The notes beneath the pieces are model-generated. The model was not told the origin of the DNA. It saw nothing but the letters and a program-made list of their open reading frames with translations, and ran no database searches. From Wenzhouxiangella sp. AB-CW3 (GTDB lineage Bacteria > Pseudomonadota > Gammaproteobacteria > Xanthomonadales > Wenzhouxiangellaceae), in assembly GCF_014725735.1 (NCBI RefSeq), contig NZ_CP061368.1, forward strand, positions 1,503,225-1,567,224: a DNA stretch of 64,000 nt, written 5' to 3'. Shown piece after piece: positions 38,201 to 43,731 of this stretch. The translations under genes were made by a program, and so were the position numbers. Each line of letters begins with the position of its first letter. The stretch's first letter is position 1.

Positions 38201-38258
38201 ACGTGTGAAGGGGCGGGCTTCGGCGGTTGGCTCGGTGGGGTGTTGGTTGGGGACTGAG

Positions 38259-38307
38259 GTGTTAGGTGTTAGGTGTTAGGTGTTAGGTGTTAGGTGTTAG
38301 GTGTTAG
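38259..38307 (+). repeat. Heptamer array, 7 x GTGTTAG
   Basis: Seven perfect head-to-tail copies of GTGTTAG are followed by GGGGGGCTCGCAC. The same unit followed by the same sequence recurs at 39479, forming a direct duplication around the toxin-antitoxin pair. Confidence 0.97.
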
Positions 38308-38311
38308 GGGG

Positions 38312-38537
38312 GCTCGCACATGGGTTCGGCGCGGTGGTGATCTCTATCTGTCGTCCCGGAATCGCCGTAGGCGATATCCGGGATCTCGCACATGGGCATC
38401 GGCGCGGTGGTGATCTCTATCTGTCGTCCCGGAATCGCCGTAGGCGATATCCGGGATCTCGCACATGGGCATCGGCGCGGTGGTGATCTCTATCTGTCGT
38501 CCCGGAATCGCCGTAGGCGATATCCGGGATCTCGCAC
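38312..38537 (+). repeat. 73-bp tandem repeat, three copies, each with a palindromic element
   Basis: The unit runs CTCGCACATGGGCATCGGCG... and includes the palindrome TGTCGTCCCGGAATCGCCGT...GGCGATATCCGGGATCTCGCAC at 38349, 38422 and 38495. The period is exactly 73 bp and copies are nearly identical (GGTTC versus GGCATC in the first). A single copy occurs at 39571-39653. Confidence 0.95.
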
Positions 38538-38598
38538 GGTGGTTGTTGGCACGGGTTGGAGTTGGGGTTTTTGGTGCAGGCCGTGCTGGTTGATCGGT

Positions 38599-38640
38599 GC
38601 GAGGTCCCGGCTCTCCGTTTCACTCCGGCCGGGACGACGG
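38599..38640 (+). repeat. Palindromic repeat, GAGGTCCCGG family (variant loop)
   Basis: GCGAGGTCCCGGCTCTCCGT...CCGGCCGGGACGACGG shares the outer arms GAGGTCCCGG / CCGGGACGAC with the other members but has a different centre. Two short copies of GGGACGACGGGGTTTATGGGCC follow in tandem (to ~38675). Confidence 0.85.
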
Positions 38641-38700
38641 GGTTTATGGGCCGGGACGACGGGGTTTATGGGCCGGGGCGACGGGGGGCGGAAGCGACGC

Positions 38701-39147
38701 TTATGGGGAGGTGGCTTCGTTGATTGTTGTGGTCAGGGGGTTGAGGATGGTCAGGTTTTCGATTTGCTGGCCGGGTTGCAGGTCTTCTGAGAGCAGCCAG
38801 TTGCAGCCGGCTTGTTGTGCGCTGGCGATGATGAGGGCGTCCCACCATGAGGTCTTATAGCGGTCTTCGATGAACCAGGCTTGTTCTAGGGTTTGCGCAT
38901 TGATATCGAGCGGCCGCCAAGTCAGCAGGTCGCGGATGTCTGACCGGGCCTGGTCCTGGGGCAGGCCCGGATCGAGGCGGTGGGTGACGACCTGGTAGTA
39001 CTCTTTTAGGACCTGTGTGCTGATTCGTCCGGCGCGGTTGGCCCACAGGTGCTTCAGCCAGGTCCGGGCCTGGCTATGCTTTTCTGGCTCGGTGGTGTCG
39101 CGGGCGTAGACGAGGACGTTGGTGTCAACGAAGTATGTCTCGGTCAT
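38701..39147 (-). CDS. PIN-domain toxin (VapC-like ribonuclease)
   Basis: This 148-aa protein has the PIN-domain acidic residues: YFVDTNVLVYARD (first Asp near residue 8), STQVLKEYYQVVT (Glu), and SWWDALIIASAQQ (the third conserved Asp). Such proteins cleave specific RNAs. It overlaps the upstream antitoxin gene by 23 nt. The frame is intact and the catalytic residues are present, in contrast to the vapC pseudogene at 21807. Confidence 0.9.
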   Translation of the reverse strand: MTETYFVDTNVLVYARDTTEPEKHSQARTWLKHLWANRAGRISTQVLKEYYQVVTHRLDPGLPQDQARSDIRDLLTWRPLDINAQTLEQAWFIEDRYKTSWWDALIIASAQQAGCNWLLSEDLQPGQQIENLTILNPLTTTINEATSP

Positions 39148-39367
39148 ACAGGTTCTCGCGGGTGGGGTAGGGTTCGTCGGTTTTTCTCATTTTCACGGGG
39201 GTGCGGCCAAAGAATCGGTCGGCGGCATTCTTGATTGCTTGTTCTCTTTCACGGTGTTCGCGCAGCATTTCGCCGACCAGGCGAGAAACGCTGGTGTTGC
39301 GGCGGGCTGCTTCCATACGGGCCCAGCGGGCGGTTTCGGGATCGAGTGTGATGGTGACGTTTTTCAT
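39125..39367 (-). CDS. Ribbon-helix-helix-like antitoxin
   Basis: I chose ATG at 39367, which gives KNVTITLDPETARWARMEAARR, the usual beginning of a ribbon-helix-helix DNA-binding protein, followed by NTSVSRLVGEMLREH. The ~80-aa size and position directly before the PIN toxin mark it as the antitoxin. Two heptamers GAAGTGT lie about 40 bp upstream of the start (39407-39420). Confidence 0.85.
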   Translation of the reverse strand: MKNVTITLDPETARWARMEAARRNTSVSRLVGEMLREHREREQAIKNAADRFFGRTPVKMRKTDEPYPTRENLYDRDILR

Positions 39368-39406
39368 GGCACGAAGTTCGTGGGGCACGAAGATAGTGTA
39401 CAGATT

Positions 39407-39420
39407 GAAGTGTGAAGTGT
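39407..39420 (+). repeat. Short heptamer array, 2 x GAAGTGT
   Basis: Two copies of GAAGTGT followed by GAAGGGGG lie upstream of the antitoxin gene. They are the same unit as the long array at 41044. Confidence 0.85.
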
Positions 39421-39478
39421 GAAGGGGGGGTTCGGGAAGTTTGGTGGGTAGTTGGGGTGGGTGCCTTTCGTCCGGGGG

Positions 39479-39569
39479 GTGTTAGGTGTTAGGTGTTAGG
39501 TGTTAGGTGTTAGGTGTTAGGTGTTAGGTGTTAGGTGTTAGGTGTTAGGTGTTAGGTGTTAGGTGTTAG
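39479..39569 (+). repeat. Heptamer array, 13 x GTGTTAG
   Basis: Thirteen perfect head-to-tail copies are followed by GGGGGGCTCGCACATGGGTT, exactly as after the 7-copy array at 38259. The different copy numbers at the two duplicated sites show that the array length changes. Confidence 0.97.
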
Positions 39570-39570
39570 G

Positions 39571-39757
39571 GGGGCTCGCACATGGGTTCGGCGCGGTGGT
39601 GATCTCTATCTGTCGTCCCGGAATCGCCGTCGGCGATATCCGGGATCTCGCACGGTGGGTGTTGGCACGGGCTGGCGCTGGGGCTTTTGGTGCAGGCTTT
39701 GCTGGGTATTTGTGTGGGAGGTCCCGGATAAATGCTGCGCATTTTCCGGGACGACGG
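39571..39757 (+). repeat. Second copy of the palindrome-bearing module
   Basis: It repeats the sequence after the first array (CTCGCACATGGGTTCGGCGC, palindrome at 39611-39653, then GTTGGCACGGG...TTTTGGTGCAGGC). It ends with another palindromic repeat at 39718-39757 whose centre is ATAAATGCTGCGCATTT. Confidence 0.9.
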
Positions 39758-39978
39758 CTTGGGTGGAGGGCGTTTTCCGGGCCGATGGTTTTTTTGGGGG
39801 TGGGGGATTACCGGCGATGCAACGCCGGTCTACGGGTGTTGGGTGGGTCGGGGATGTGTCCCCGGCGTGGAGCTGAGGGGGCGTTTTCCGGGCCGATGGT
39901 TTTTTTGGGGGTGGGGGATTGCCGGCGATGCAACGCCGGTCTACGGATGTTGGGTAGGCCGGGGCTGCATCCCCGGCG
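39758..39978 (+). repeat. 111-bp direct repeat with GTAG-headed palindromes
   Basis: Two near-identical copies (period 111 bp) each contain GGGCCGATGGTTTTTTTGGG, the palindrome CCGGCGATGCAACGCCGGTCTAC (39811-39833 and 39922-39944; GTAG on the reverse strand) and a second palindrome of the form GTAGGCCGGGGCTGCATCCC (39954-39978; degraded at 39846). The following ~160 bp up to cysD hold no gene. Confidence 0.85.
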
Positions 39979-40139
39979 AACACGACGATTGGGGGTGTTC
40001 ATTCCGGTTGGTCGTATGGTCATTACCGGAGCATCTGATTGCGGGGGGATTTCGGTGATACATTCTGCATTCGCGCCGGGGCGGGTCTTGGGTCCGTGTC
40101 GGTACTGACGGTTCATGCCTGGTTTTGGAGATTCACGGA

Positions 40140-41039
40140 GTGACGACATTGACGCATCTCGATGCCCTAGAGGCCGAGGCGATTCATATCATTCGCGAGG
40201 TGGCTGCCCAGTTTCAGCATCCAGTGATGTTGTATTCGGTGGGCAAGGACTCGTCGGTGCTTCTGCACTTGCTGGTCAAGGCGTTTTGCCCCTCGCCGCC
40301 ACCGATTCCGCTGTTGCATGTGGATACCGGCTGGAAGTTTCGCGAGATGATCGAGTTTCGGGACCGGCGTGCGCGGGAAACCGGTTGCCAGTTGTTCGCC
40401 TATACCAATCCCGAGGGGGTTGAGCAGGGCGTCGGGCCGGTGTCGCATGGTGCGTCGGTGCATACCGATGTGATGAAGACGCAGGCTTTGAAGCAGGCGC
40501 TGGACAAGTACCAGGTGGACGCGGCCATTGGTGGCGCCCGCCGCGACGAGGAGAAGTCACGCGCCAAGGAGCGGGTGTTCTCGTTCCGCAATCATCGCCA
40601 TCAGTGGGATCCGAAGAACCAGCGGCCGGAACTGTGGCAGCACTACAACGGCCGTATCAACCGCGGTGAGAGCGTGAGGGTGTTTCCGCTTTCGAACTGG
40701 ACGGAGCTGGATATCTGGCTCTATATCTACCGCGAGAACATCGAAGTGCCTTCGCTGTATTTCGCCAAGCCCCGCCCGGTGGTCGAGCGCGAGGGAATTC
40801 TGATCATGGTCGACGATGACCGTCTGCCGATCGAACCGGGGGAAGTACAGACCCGCACTGTACGCTTCCGCACCCTGGGCTGCTACCCACTGACCGGCGC
40901 CATCGAATCCGAAGCCGATTCCCTGGAAGCCATCATCAGCGAAATGCTGGTCGCAACCACCTCCGAACGCCAAGGACGGGTGATCGACAAGGATCCGGCG
41001 GATTCTATGGAGAAGAAGAAGATTGAGGGGTATTTCTAA
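40140..41039 (+). CDS. cysD: Sulfate adenylyltransferase subunit 2
   Basis: CysD is the PP-loop ATP pyrophosphatase subunit that, with the CysN GTPase, makes adenosine 5'-phosphosulfate from sulfate and ATP. It contains the PP-loop [55 protein letters not shown] and the conserved [24 protein letters not shown]. The length of ~299 aa is standard. I chose GTG 40140, with GGAG 9 nt upstream, rather than TTG 40125. It should form an operon with cysNC but is separated from it by a four-helix-bundle gene and heptamer repeats. Confidence 0.95.
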
Positions 41040-41043
41040 GTGG

Positions 41044-41134
41044 GAAGGGTGAAGGGTGAAGGGTTAAGTGTGAAGTGTGAAGTGTGAAGTGTGAAGTGTT
41101 AAGTGTTAAGTGTTAAGTGTTAAGTGTTAAGTGT
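41044..41134 (+). repeat. Heptamer array, 13 units (GAAGGGT, GAAGTGT, TAAGTGT)
   Basis: Thirteen consecutive 7-bp units begin immediately after the cysD stop: 3 x GAAGGGT, 1 x TAAGTGT, 4 x GAAGTGT, 5 x TAAGTGT. Variants are grouped in blocks, which points to growth by local duplication. The array ends 20 bp before the start of the four-helix-bundle gene. Confidence 0.97.
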
Positions 41135-41153
41135 GGCGTTGCGGGAGGTTTTT

Positions 41154-41570
41154 GTGGCTTACTTTTCGTTTGAGGATTTGGAGGTTTGGAAGCGCGGGTG
41201 TCGGGTGGCAGTGGAGGTTTGCTCCTTGCTGCGCGATTCGCGGGAGTGGGGGCTTCGGGATCAGATGATGCGGGCGGCGGTTTCGGTGCCGTCGAATATT
41301 GCCGAGGGTGCTGAGCGTAGTGCGCCGAGAGATTTTGCGCGGTTTTTGAACATTGCTCGCGGTTCGGCGGCGGAGTTGCGCACGCAGCTTTATATCGCGT
41401 CACAGACAGGTGTGGTGTCCAGCGAACGGGCATCTGAGTTGATCAAGGAACTGAAGGAAGTGTCATCCATGCTATACACGCTGGCCAATCAGCAAACGCA
41501 GAAGGTGAAGGAAGAAGATTCTTCACACTTCACACTTCACACTTCACACTTGCCCGCGGAGCACTCGTGA
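41154..41570 (+). CDS. Four-helix-bundle protein (S23 / 23S rRNA intervening-sequence type)
   Basis: This ~138-aa protein matches the S23-like four-helix-bundle family: [20 protein letters not shown] at the N-terminus, [21 protein letters not shown] in the middle and [19 protein letters not shown] in the third helix. Relatives are encoded in 23S rRNA intervening sequences, and the diversity-generating retroelement protein Avd shares the fold. Molecular function is not established for this type. GTG 41154 is chosen for its GGGAGG site. The last ~18 residues ([18 protein letters not shown]-like) are translated heptamer repeat. It splits the cysD-cysNC pair. Confidence 0.88.
41524..41551 (-). 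repeat. Inverted heptamer array, 4 units, inside the four-helix-bundle gene end
   Basis: Four copies of CACACTT on the + strand read AAGTGTG on the other strand, the same unit as the array at 41044 but in opposite orientation. The two arrays therefore bracket the four-helix-bundle gene as inverted repeats. Confidence 0.95.
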
Positions 41571-43444
41571 TGGCCACAGCAGACATCAAGGCCTACCTGG
41601 CTACCCATGAGACAAAGCCTTTGCTTCGCTTCATCACTTGCGGTTCGGTGGATGATGGGAAGTCGACGATGATTGGGCGTTTGTTGCATGATTCCAAGCG
41701 TTTGTTTGATGATCAGCTTGCGGCGTTGCAGGCGGATAGTCGGAAGCATGGTACGCAGGGGGAGAAGATTGATTTTGCGTTGTTGGTCGATGGCTTGTCG
41801 GCTGAGCGGGAGCAGGGGATTACGATTGATGTGGCTTATCGGTTCTTTGATACCGACCGGGCCAAGTTCATTGTGGCCGATTGCCCGGGTCATGAGCAGT
41901 ACACGCGCAATATGGCGACCGGGGCGTCGACTGCGCGGTTGGCGGTGGTGCTGGTTGATGCCCGCAAGGGGGTGTTGACGCAGACGCGCCGGCATTCCTG
42001 GATCTGCCGCCTGATGGGAATTGACCGGGTGTTGCTGGCCATCAACAAGATGGATCTGGTCGACTACAGCCAGTCGGTGTATGAAGACATTGCCTCGGAG
42101 TATCGTGCGCTGGCCGGTGAGCTGGGGATTGATCAGGTCAGTTGCATTCCGATTTCGGCGCTGGAGGGCGATAACGTGAGTCGTCAATCGGATCGCATGC
42201 CCTGGTATGACGGCCCGGTGCTGCTCGATGCGCTGGAGCAGGCGGCTGAATCGGTTGATCAGGTCCGTGGCGAGGCGTTTCGCTTGCCGGTGCAGTGGGT
42301 TTGCCGCCCGAATCAGAACTTCCGCGGGTTTGCCGGTCAGTTGATTGGCGGGCCGGTGGCCGTGGGTGATGAGGTGACGGTGTTGCCTTCCGGCACGCGG
42401 TCGCGGGTGGCTTCGCTGCATGTGGGCCCGGATGAGGTCGAGCGGGCTGAGGCCGGGCAGGCGGTGGTGCTGGCGTTTGAAGACGAGGTCGATGTCAGTC
42501 GCGGTGATGTACTGGTGGCCGCCCATGCCCCGCTGGAGGTGGCCGATCAGTTCAGTGCCCACCTGTTGTGGATGGATGAGCATCCGTTGATGGCGCATCG
42601 TGCCTACCGGGTGCGTATCGGCACCGTGGAGTGCGGGGGGCAGGTCAGCGAGATCAAGCACCAGGTGGATGTAAACAGCCAGGAGCATATCGCCGCGCGC
42701 CAGCTTGAGCTCAATGCCGTGGCCCGGGTCGATCTGGATATTGACCGGCATGTGGCTTTTTCGCGTTATGAGGATGATCGCGAGCTGGGCAGTTTTGTGC
42801 TGATCGATCGCCAGACCAACGCCACGGTGGGTGCGGGGGTGATCGACTATGCGTTGCGCCGCGCGCAGAACGTGCACTGGCAATCGCTGGAGGTCGACAA
42901 GGCGGCGCGCTCGCGGATCAAGGCGCAGGAGCCGGTGTGCATCTGGCTGACCGGGCTTTCGGGTTCGGGCAAGTCGACGATTGCCAATGCGGTGGAGCGC
43001 AAGCTGCTGGCGCGTGGCCATCATACGTATCTGCTCGACGGCGACAATGTGCGCCATGGCCTGAACCGCGACCTCGGCTTTACCGAAGCCGACCGGGTGG
43101 AAAATATTCGTCGGGTGGGTGAAGTGGCCCGCTTGATGACCGATGCCGGCCTGATCGTGCTGGTGAGCTTCATTTCGCCTTTCCGGGCCGAGCGGCGCAT
43201 GGTGCGCGAGCGTTTCGACAAGGGTGAGTTCATCGAGGTGTTCGTGGATACGCCGCTGGAGGTGTGCGAAGAACGCGACGTAAAGGGTTTGTATGCCAAG
43301 GCGCGCGCCGGCGAGATTCCCAATTTCACGGGCATCAGTTCGCCTTATGAGGAGCCGGAGAATGCGGAGTTGGTGCTGGATACGGTGGGGCGTAGTGCGG
43401 ATGAGTTGGCTGATGAGGTGATTCGGCGGGCGTTGGGGGAGTAG
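41570..43444 (+). CDS. cysNC: Bifunctional sulfate adenylyltransferase subunit 1 / APS kinase
   Basis: The N-terminal ~430 residues are the CysN GTPase (G1 loop GSVDDGKS at 25-32, [28 protein letters not shown]) with EF-Tu-like beta-barrel domains. Residues ~450-624 are CysC APS kinase (P-loop GLSGSGKS at 462-469, [34 protein letters not shown]). With CysD it makes APS, and then PAPS, the sulfo donor for the five [20 protein letters not shown] genes in this window. The ATG at 41570 overlaps the last base of the preceding gene; GTG 41567 is an alternative. A CysNC fusion is a known variant (NodQ type). Confidence 0.96.
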
Positions 43445-43447
43445 AGG

Positions 43448-43565
43448 AAAGTGTTAAGTGTGAAGATCTGTAGGCCGGGGCTGCGTCCCCGGCTTTTCTC
43501 TGGGGCCGTGCGGGTTGCATGGTGCGAGGTCCCGGATAAATGCTGCGCATTTTCCGGGACGACGG
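43448..43565 (+). repeat. Heptamer remnant and two palindromic repeats after cysNC
   Basis: GTGTTAAGTGTGAAG just after the cysNC stop is a two-unit heptamer remnant. It is followed by a GTAG-headed palindrome (GTAGGCCGGGGCTGCGTCCC, 43470-43493) and a GAGGTCCCGG-family palindrome (43523-43565) with the same ATAAATGCTGCGCATTT centre as the one at 39718. Confidence 0.85.
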
Positions 43566-43731
43566 TGGGGGGGCACCGCGGGGCGCCGGTGGGGGCACCG
43601 CGGGGCGCCGGTGGGGGCAGCCTGGGGGTGCTGGTGGGGGCAGCCTGGGGGTGCTGGTGGGGGCAGCCTGGGGGTGCCGGTGGGGTGGGGTGACGTTCGA
43701 AGGGTGGGTAGACCGGGGCTGCGTCCCCGGT
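43564..43731 (+). repeat. G-rich tandem repeat and GTAG-headed palindrome
   Basis: Five units of about 22-23 bp of the type GGTGGGGGCACCGCGGGGCG or GGTGGGGGCAGCCTGGGGGT span 43564-43690. Runs of four to five G make quadruplex formation possible. A palindrome GTAGACCGGGGCTGCGTCCC follows at 43708-43731. No gene is present before 43778. Confidence 0.9.

Follow-up and report, generated by a model that had tools for sequence, protein, structure and literature searches.

RAYT transposases are encoded by genes flanked by REPs, repeats of fixed sequence that are dispersed in the genome and whose number tracks the gene. Genes of the S23 family, which are present in many bacterial phyla and have no settled function, are known from the intervening sequences (IVS) of 23S rRNA. 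There the S23 gene lies within terminal inverted repeats, which form a 28-bp stem that is cut by RNase III; a past mobile element has been proposed for the IVS, as has a mobile or selfish nature (PMC4990558). Tandem heptamers form another class of repeats; their abundance in bacteria is on record, but there is no agreed explanation for it (PMC4692102). Examples are TAACTGA of Beggiatoaceae (PMC4679880), GGGAATC of Xanthomonas and GGGGA(C/T)T of Nostoc (PMC4692102), and the heptanucleotide elements of Geobacter metallireducens (PMC2700814); according to PMC4692102, the repeats described there were generally not found with mobile elements. The main text of PMC4679880 contains no S23, 23S or four helix, that of PMC4692102 no four-helix or 23S, that of PMC2700814 no S23 or four-helix, and those of PMC4853749 and PMC3542288, where looked for, no S23 and/or four-helix. 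A search of the open-access literature, subscription papers being outside its scope, found no account of S23 genes that are enclosed by heptamer arms.

The window, i.e. the whole stretch of 64,000 nt that was analysed (G000:C1:1503225-1567224), belongs to a genome of 3.84 Mb in a single contig (G000). It contains an S23 (23S_rRNA_IVP) four-helix-bundle gene (41154..41570, plus strand) between cysD (PAPS_reduct; 40125..41039, plus strand) and cysNC (41570..43444, plus strand, with the ATG at 41570). The left arm (41037..41135, plus strand) consists of about 14 heptamers (TAAGTGG, GAAGGGT, GAAGTGT, TAAGTGT), and the right arm (41521..41551, minus strand) of 4.4 heptamers that read CTTCACA on the plus strand, which is the unit of the left arm in reverse complement. 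TRF reports period 7 for both, with 14.0 copies and 92% matches at 41038-41135 and 4.4 copies and 100% matches at 41521-41551. The first-pass annotation had counted 13 and 4 units, the longer array beginning right after the cysD stop; the counts are right within one unit, and the stop at 41037 is itself supplied by the first heptamer, TAAGTGG, so that the stop codon of cysD is now array-derived. The GTG start of S23 was picked by alignment with the orthologue of a related genome (G017). The C-terminal tail of the protein is translated through the right arm, and its TGA overlaps the ATG of cysNC in a TGATG (41568..41572, plus strand) that in relatives joins cysD and cysNC.

The boundaries of the insert follow from empty sites. 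A CysD search over 43 genomes from the family yielded 28 strong matches, and in the nearest relatives that lack S23 at this place, G027 (CysD 93% identical), G031 (89%), G020, G018 and G033, cysD and cysNC overlap as TTC-TGATG; in G027 and G031, TATTTC directly adjoins TGATGG. The distance from the start of the stop codon to a fixed CysN motif is 59 nt in relatives vs 590 nt in the window, which implies an insert of 531 nt, or 177 codons, between TTC and TGATGG (41037..41567, plus strand), extending from the last cysD sense codon to the TGATG before cysNC; the original TGATG now serves S23 and cysNC. The gene and both arms are thus one insert in an otherwise contiguous operon, as the first-pass annotation had supposed. 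No target-site duplication is visible at the insert. In the family as a whole, cysD and cysNC are contiguous at 19 of the 28 junctions (the CysN motif being no more than 88 nt away; G006 by eye), S23 is present at two (G000 and G017) and another small ORF at three (G040, G041, G042), and cysNC is absent from the 700 nt examined in two (G014, G037). Repeat-like letters but no S23 are seen at the G034 junction, and at that of G032 an array runs to the contig end (both by eye), so that arms can occur at the cysD junction without an S23 gene.

The window ORF matches PF05635, its sole domain, with 113.2 bits (cut-off 33.8) and TIGR02436 with 111.7 bits (cut-off 24). The AlphaFold2 model (pLDDT 95.4) matches the four-helix bundles 2gsc (TMq 0.70-0.75) and 2rld (0.66-0.69), both of which are also retrieved by sequence search, in agreement with the S23-type gene that the first-pass annotation had placed between the arrays. 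Its remark that the fold is shared with Avd of diversity-generating retroelements (DGR) also stands, with TM 0.67 for 4dwl and 0.65 for 8ube, though the Foldseek E-value of 0.025 is weak and the window S23 has no match to the Avd profile NF033474. This likeness would fit a scheme in which S23, in the manner of Avd, serves a distant reverse transcriptase that copies the arms in trans. We consider such a scheme highly improbable, given that the window protein matches TIGR02436 and not NF033474, that PF00078 reverse transcriptases are found in 12 of the 43 genomes and in 7 of the 23 S23-positive ones (some genomes are incomplete), and that G017 combines five S23 matches with no PF00078 reverse transcriptase. 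The absence of the enzyme from 16 of the 23 S23-positive genomes largely rules out that such copying in trans is the general mechanism. In G000, nine reverse transcriptase matches, four of them equal-scoring, lie in a cluster at G000:C1:3792391-3820990; the locus described here is at 1.54 Mb.

Other functional assignments were considered for the protein. An anti-phage defence system was rejected because the two S23 proteins scanned have no match among PADLOC defence profiles, and phages were rejected as carriers because the window S23 has no match in phage records at E 1e-5. Separately, at least ten near-identical Avd-like genes are listed in genome G297; the eight examined (L404-L407) occur with CGATTAA heptamer arrays, and at one of these loci an array or gene end lies at the ATG of a 1693-aa ORF. 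The neighbours are presumably a lectin-like and a transposase-like ORF, and the gene names in L405 are likewise assumed. A recent burst of S23 in G297 was rejected, since the protein is Avd-like (matching NF033474 below the cut-off) and is encoded beside DGR-like genes.

In G017 (CysD 92%), the orthologous S23 gene adjoins cysNC and further modules, which we take to be VapBC, RelBE and BrnTA, are located on the cysD side (L204 1960-5417, G017:C22), set apart by arrays of the heptamer seen in the window; the RelE of this junction is also matched by PF05016. Comparison of S23 between G000 and G017 gives a dN/dS of 0.18 at dS 0.97 (one genome pair, first 122 codons), and the S23 protein of the cysD-cysNC site is under purifying selection. 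In the window, a VapC-like PIN gene and its partner (weak DUF6364 match) lie between heptamer arrays at 38251-39574 on the minus strand, upstream of cysD; G017 has a module like this pair, but downstream of cysD. Other tandem repeats round the cys operon are found at 38313-38537 (73 nt, 3.1 copies), 39768-39978 (111 nt, 1.9 copies) and 43555-43685 (22-24 nt).

The association between S23 genes and arrays was scored over 122 loci, namely 24 from the family, 24 from the class (which we take to be Gammaproteobacteria) and 74 from many phyla, the last being drawn from the best 80 of at least 588 matches. An array was called at 18 or more of 21 matches at a given lag, no more than 300 nt from the gene. 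The genome searches gave loci for part of their matches, so the locus sets are subsets; loci that were too short or near a contig end were dropped (10, 5 and 6 from the three S23 sets; 5 for BrnT, 11 for ParE, 1 for GxxExxY, 2 for CysD and 12 for RpmG). Lag-7 arrays are found beside S23 in 15/24 family, 17/24 class and 24/74 many-phyla loci, and each other lag gives at most one array save lag 8 (4, 0 and 5 per set). Among the control families, the lag-7 counts are 0/25 for BrnT, 0/19 for ParE (in the same 43 genomes) and 0/29 for GxxExxY, for which 1, 2 and 1 calls were made at lags 8, 9 and 10. The pooled comparison, 56/122 vs 0/73 (Fisher 1.2e-14), bears out the association for which the first-pass annotation had suggested such scoring; at a looser threshold of 16/21 it becomes 83/122 vs 1/73. 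Correspondingly, 66 of the 122 S23 loci have no array at 18/21 and 39 have none at 16/21. Lag-7 arrays also occur near CysD (3/28) and RpmG (3/18); two of the three CysD matches (3/26 in a 450-nt scoring) are those of G000 and G017, both with S23 there, and RpmG is a neighbour at an S23 hot spot.

The arrays are concentrated next to the gene. Locus ends away from S23 carry arrays in 4/24, 1/24 and 1/68 cases. In 250-nt blocks, a first scan found them in 7/297 far blocks vs 23/53 to the left and 27/55 to the right of S23 (covering 55 of 63 S23 loci, eight being without the motif regex, and with the right flank starting inside the 3' part of the gene), and a second scan in 24/1275 far blocks vs 16/79 to the left and 21/80 to the right. 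The loci of G017 and G002 had suggested that arrays generally carry toxin-antitoxin (TA) modules; this was rejected on the BrnT and ParE zeros, and we regard the TA loci of these two genomes as hot spots and not as typical. The G002 locus (L408 1742-5207, G002:C50) contains three S23 genes among heptamer arrays of differing units, in what we take to be a polysaccharide-type cluster with a Phd/PIN-like module.

What recurs in these arrays is not their sequence. In G000, all six S23 genes (PF05635) have period-7 repeats near both ends with a different unit each (by eye; strict scoring calls four, L001-L004); units of the GGTGACA, GAAGTGT, AGTTGTA, AGGTGAA and TCGAGGT types are inverted and those of L001 direct (by eye). 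Over all sets, the reverse complement of the unit is present in the opposite flank (at least 17/21) for 55 of 76 arrays vs 14/912 when flanks of other loci are used; the 76 arrays come from 56 loci, some of which count twice. Direct instead of inverted arrays account for 5/76 by score and are seen by eye in L001 and plasmid locus L420. Among the 56 loci there are 47 distinct inward-reading units, with G exceeding C on the inward strand in 35 and C exceeding G in 4. A heptamer consensus was rejected, with circular alignment reaching 3.42 bits vs 2.81-3.30 for ten shuffled sets (run with fewer restarts). The period is thus nearly fixed and the unit sequence free, and arms are matched within a locus and different between loci. 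The premise of a single repeat, made in the first-pass annotation, holds for the cysD-cysNC insert, where the right arm is the inverted left-arm unit, but it needs amending for S23 loci at large, most of which have a 7-mer of their own; the recurring features are the period, the pairing of inverted arms and the bias between strands.

An exceptionless period of 7 was rejected, since 9/122 S23 loci have a lag-8 call at 18/21 (for example L061 on the right and L167 on both sides). Octamer repeats at S23 genes were also observed in L051, L062 and L417. Matched inverted flanks extend beyond the strictly called arrays, being found in 83 of 120 S23 loci (two of the 122 were left out for runs of N) and in 39/65 of those without a strict array; twelve non-strict loci that were printed show mostly degenerate heptamers or octamers. 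The corresponding control counts are 0/25 for BrnT, 2/19 for ParE and 1/28 for CysD. At a junction that we take to be carA-carB, the unit differs by species (GGGGTCA/GGGACTA, GGGGCGA, GGGACTC) and both arms change together (partly by eye); the unit in Pseudoxanthomonas L148 is GGGACCG, with flanks homologous to L039. The gene names radC and glyA-nrdR are likewise presumed, having been assigned from sequence. The unit of S23 arrays behind the rpmG terminator similarly varies from species to species, and at this junction a bare arm pair without S23 is seen in G015 and G028 (both by eye). An inward-reading frame of more than 120 codons ends within -60 to +90 nt of the array start in 53 of the 76 cases (a descriptive count), 27 of these at no more than 12 nt (hand count), so that arms often abut or contain the stop codon of the neighbour. 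In L106, L111, L134 and L137 (Pseudoalteromonas and other Gammaproteobacteria), extra arrays of the AGCTNNN type are located about 1.0-1.25 kb upstream of S23.

At the level of whole genomes, S23-positive ones have more array matches (Mann-Whitney p 0.0008, Spearman 0.52 over 43 genomes, with kinship not corrected for and with S23 counts that include two matches below the family cut-off, in G001 and G009). Exceptions include G024 (334 array matches) and G028 (186), which have no S23 match, and G005, which has two S23 and 0 array matches. A backward-read control pattern also matched often (190 vs 300; 475 vs 779 in G000), so these counts represent arrays in general and not one motif; the control matches presumably stem from arrays of other units. 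In samples of 40 kb per genome, chosen for long enough contigs, 6 arrays in 3 genomes were found among ten S23-positive class genomes (of 59) vs 0 among ten S23-negative ones (p 0.04). Within the genus, samples of 200 kb each of G037 (one S23) and G015 (none) held 0 arrays. In 380 kb of G000, 34 lag-7 arrays were found, with 0 at lags 5, 6, 8, 9 and 11, 2 at lag 10 and 1 at lag 12, an excess at lag 7 beyond chance; S23-free arrays abound in this genome, and 8 of 12 neighbouring array pairs (less than 300 nt apart) have inward geometry and no S23. Arrays alone at many sites, which the first-pass annotation had held to speak against a link with S23 if no association above chance remained, thus do occur in G000, but the association stays strong.

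These S23-free arrays suggest an alternative in which the arrays came first, by slippage or repair at gene ends, and became landing sites for small genes such as S23 and TA modules, with S23 passive. The S23-free repeats seen by eye at cysD in G034 and G032, and at rpmG in G015 and G028, fit this order of events, as do the four kinds of modules, S23 included, that lie among arrays at the G017 junction. Bacteria in general have an excess of heptameric repeats, for which an origin by slippage has been put forward (PMC4692102). Nevertheless, we regard this second alternative as decidedly unlikely: the small genes for BrnT and, in the same 43 genomes, ParE are found without arrays, the 19 contiguous cysD junctions lack any array, and seven of the ten S23-positive class genomes have no array in 40 kb, yet most class S23 loci do have one. 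Moreover, slippage leaves the locus-specific inverted pairing unexplained, and the count of 55/76 vs 14/912 strains it.

The history of S23 loci can be followed in pairs of related genes. Pairs that are 73-79% identical, with no flank homology found, include L105/L111 (both flanks) and L111/L137 (left flank); in other pairs, both flanks are retained at protein identities as low as 61% (among pairs of at least 60% that were listed). Judged from these alignments, some sites probably represent old residence and others relocation or transfer. S23 relatives are also found in 20 plasmid records, of which six cyanobacterial ones were examined: the lag-7 score is at least 17 on both sides of S23 in five, and 13 and 16 in the sixth (Stanieria). 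In the Nostoc edaphicum plasmid NZ_CP054697.1 (L418), S23 is on the strand opposite to two ribonucleotide reductase (nrd) subunit genes and hence S23 is not always read from a host operon; in Pseudanabaena galeata NZ_CP112875.1, it is located beside cas6 and cas4 and the arms are direct.

The main alternative is DNA transposition, with S23 and its arms forming a transposon-like unit, solo arm pairs being MITE-like as in RAYT/REP systems, and the protein together with host enzymes moving the DNA between inward arms. Such movement would account for the exact insert at cysD-cysNC, the solo inward pairs in G000 (8/12) and at the rpmG junctions of G015 and G028 (by eye), the similar S23 genes without flank homology and the tendency of array matches to go with S23 across genomes. 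It is at odds with a protein that has PF05635 alone and no catalytic domain, with the lack of a visible target-site duplication, with arms whose unconserved sequence offers no fixed end to recognise, and with those S23 pairs that keep both flanks to 61%, which look like old residence. On balance, we consider transposition unlikely.

Instead, we lean towards reading the insert as an intron-like selfish element of the IVS type that settled at an operon gene junction instead of in 23S rRNA. We base this preference on the five empty sites, the S23-array association, the inverted pairing, the parallel with the 23S IVS, the dN/dS value, the correlation across genomes, the arms on cyanobacterial plasmids and the RNA fold. 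The last was computed for a 534-nt RNA, with an MFE of -211.3 kcal/mol vs -179.4 (sd 5.66; 100 shuffles; z -5.64), and in the predicted structure the two arms pair with each other in a long stem round the ORF. Counted against the IVS-like reading are the 66 loci without an array, the direct arrays, the S23-free arrays, genomes G024 and G028, the junctions of G034 and G032, the orientation of L418, the lack of a target-site duplication and the lack of a phage match. As we infer the mobility of the element and the action of its protein, the arms would pair in the transcript into the long stem, which by analogy with the 23S IVS could let RNase III cut or isolate the insert while the host operon tolerates it. 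The in-frame insert would keep both host genes readable, with the TGATG overlap kept before cysNC. An S23 oligomer might bind its own arms, perhaps with one subunit per 7-nt step, and such binding, along with copying between the arms, could keep them complementary while the unit drifts; arm pairs, with or without the gene, would occasionally spread to other gene junctions.

A second family appears to have an array grammar of its own. GxxExxY genes (PF13366; L374-L403), named in two papers and mentioned in passing in one of these (PMC8934634), are flanked by inward cores of the CACAGAG/CGCCAAG/CGCAAAT type in 24/29 loci and on both sides in 20, a descriptive count because the CACAGAG-like core was defined on the same loci; outward-reading cores are found in 4 loci. 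The spacing of the cores is 8, 9 or 10 nt in 37, 56 and 18 of 113 distances. CACAGAG-like cores are absent from the other loci (S23 0/122, BrnT 0/25, ParE 0/19, CysD 0/28), and in 20/29 GxxExxY loci the locus-specific pairing beats all of the locus's own controls; neither result depends on the definition of the core. Slippage alone hardly accounts for array grammars that differ from one protein family to another, and the GxxExxY parallel suggests that the S23 arms are not a single oddity. We tentatively offer the wider proposal, about which we remain more doubtful than convinced, that both belong to one class of selfish elements: the gene for a small protein would be bracketed by inward inverted arrays, a family-specific spacing grammar (7 nt, rarely 8, for S23 and 8-10 nt for GxxExxY nucleases) would be recognised more than sequence, the arms would be rewritten in concert and much of the unexplained heptameric repeat DNA of bacteria would consist of solo arms. 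If the protein indeed copies the arms in concert, or has them copied for it, the ends of such an element would be set by a period and would be missed by sequence-based searches. The statistical tie between S23 genes and heptamers makes both the function of the former and the abundance of the latter testable, and the cysD-cysNC locus offers a test case with one protein family, one spacing rule and genomes that have the exact empty site.

Compared with known systems, the S23 arms resemble the heptameric repeats described in the papers cited above in being tandem, often intergenic and sometimes inverted, with a unit that varies between organisms. The four-helix-bundle fold is shared with Avd of DGRs, whereas there is no reverse transcriptase near the window S23 and the Avd model is not matched. 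The RAYT/REP systems may be comparable, in that repeats like those beside the gene are also dispersed in the genome and their number goes with the gene, although the dispersed arrays of G000 consist of many different units and the correlation over the 43 genomes is uncorrected for relatedness; S23 has no HUH/tyrosine transposase domain, and its arms have a fixed period and a free sequence. The 23S rRNA IVS has the same protein family, an ORF enclosed by complementary stem-forming ends and a sporadic distribution (PMC4990558). It differs from the insert described here, which sits between cysD and cysNC and not inside 23S rRNA, and which has arms of tandem heptamers with a locus-specific unit that also exist as solo pairs.
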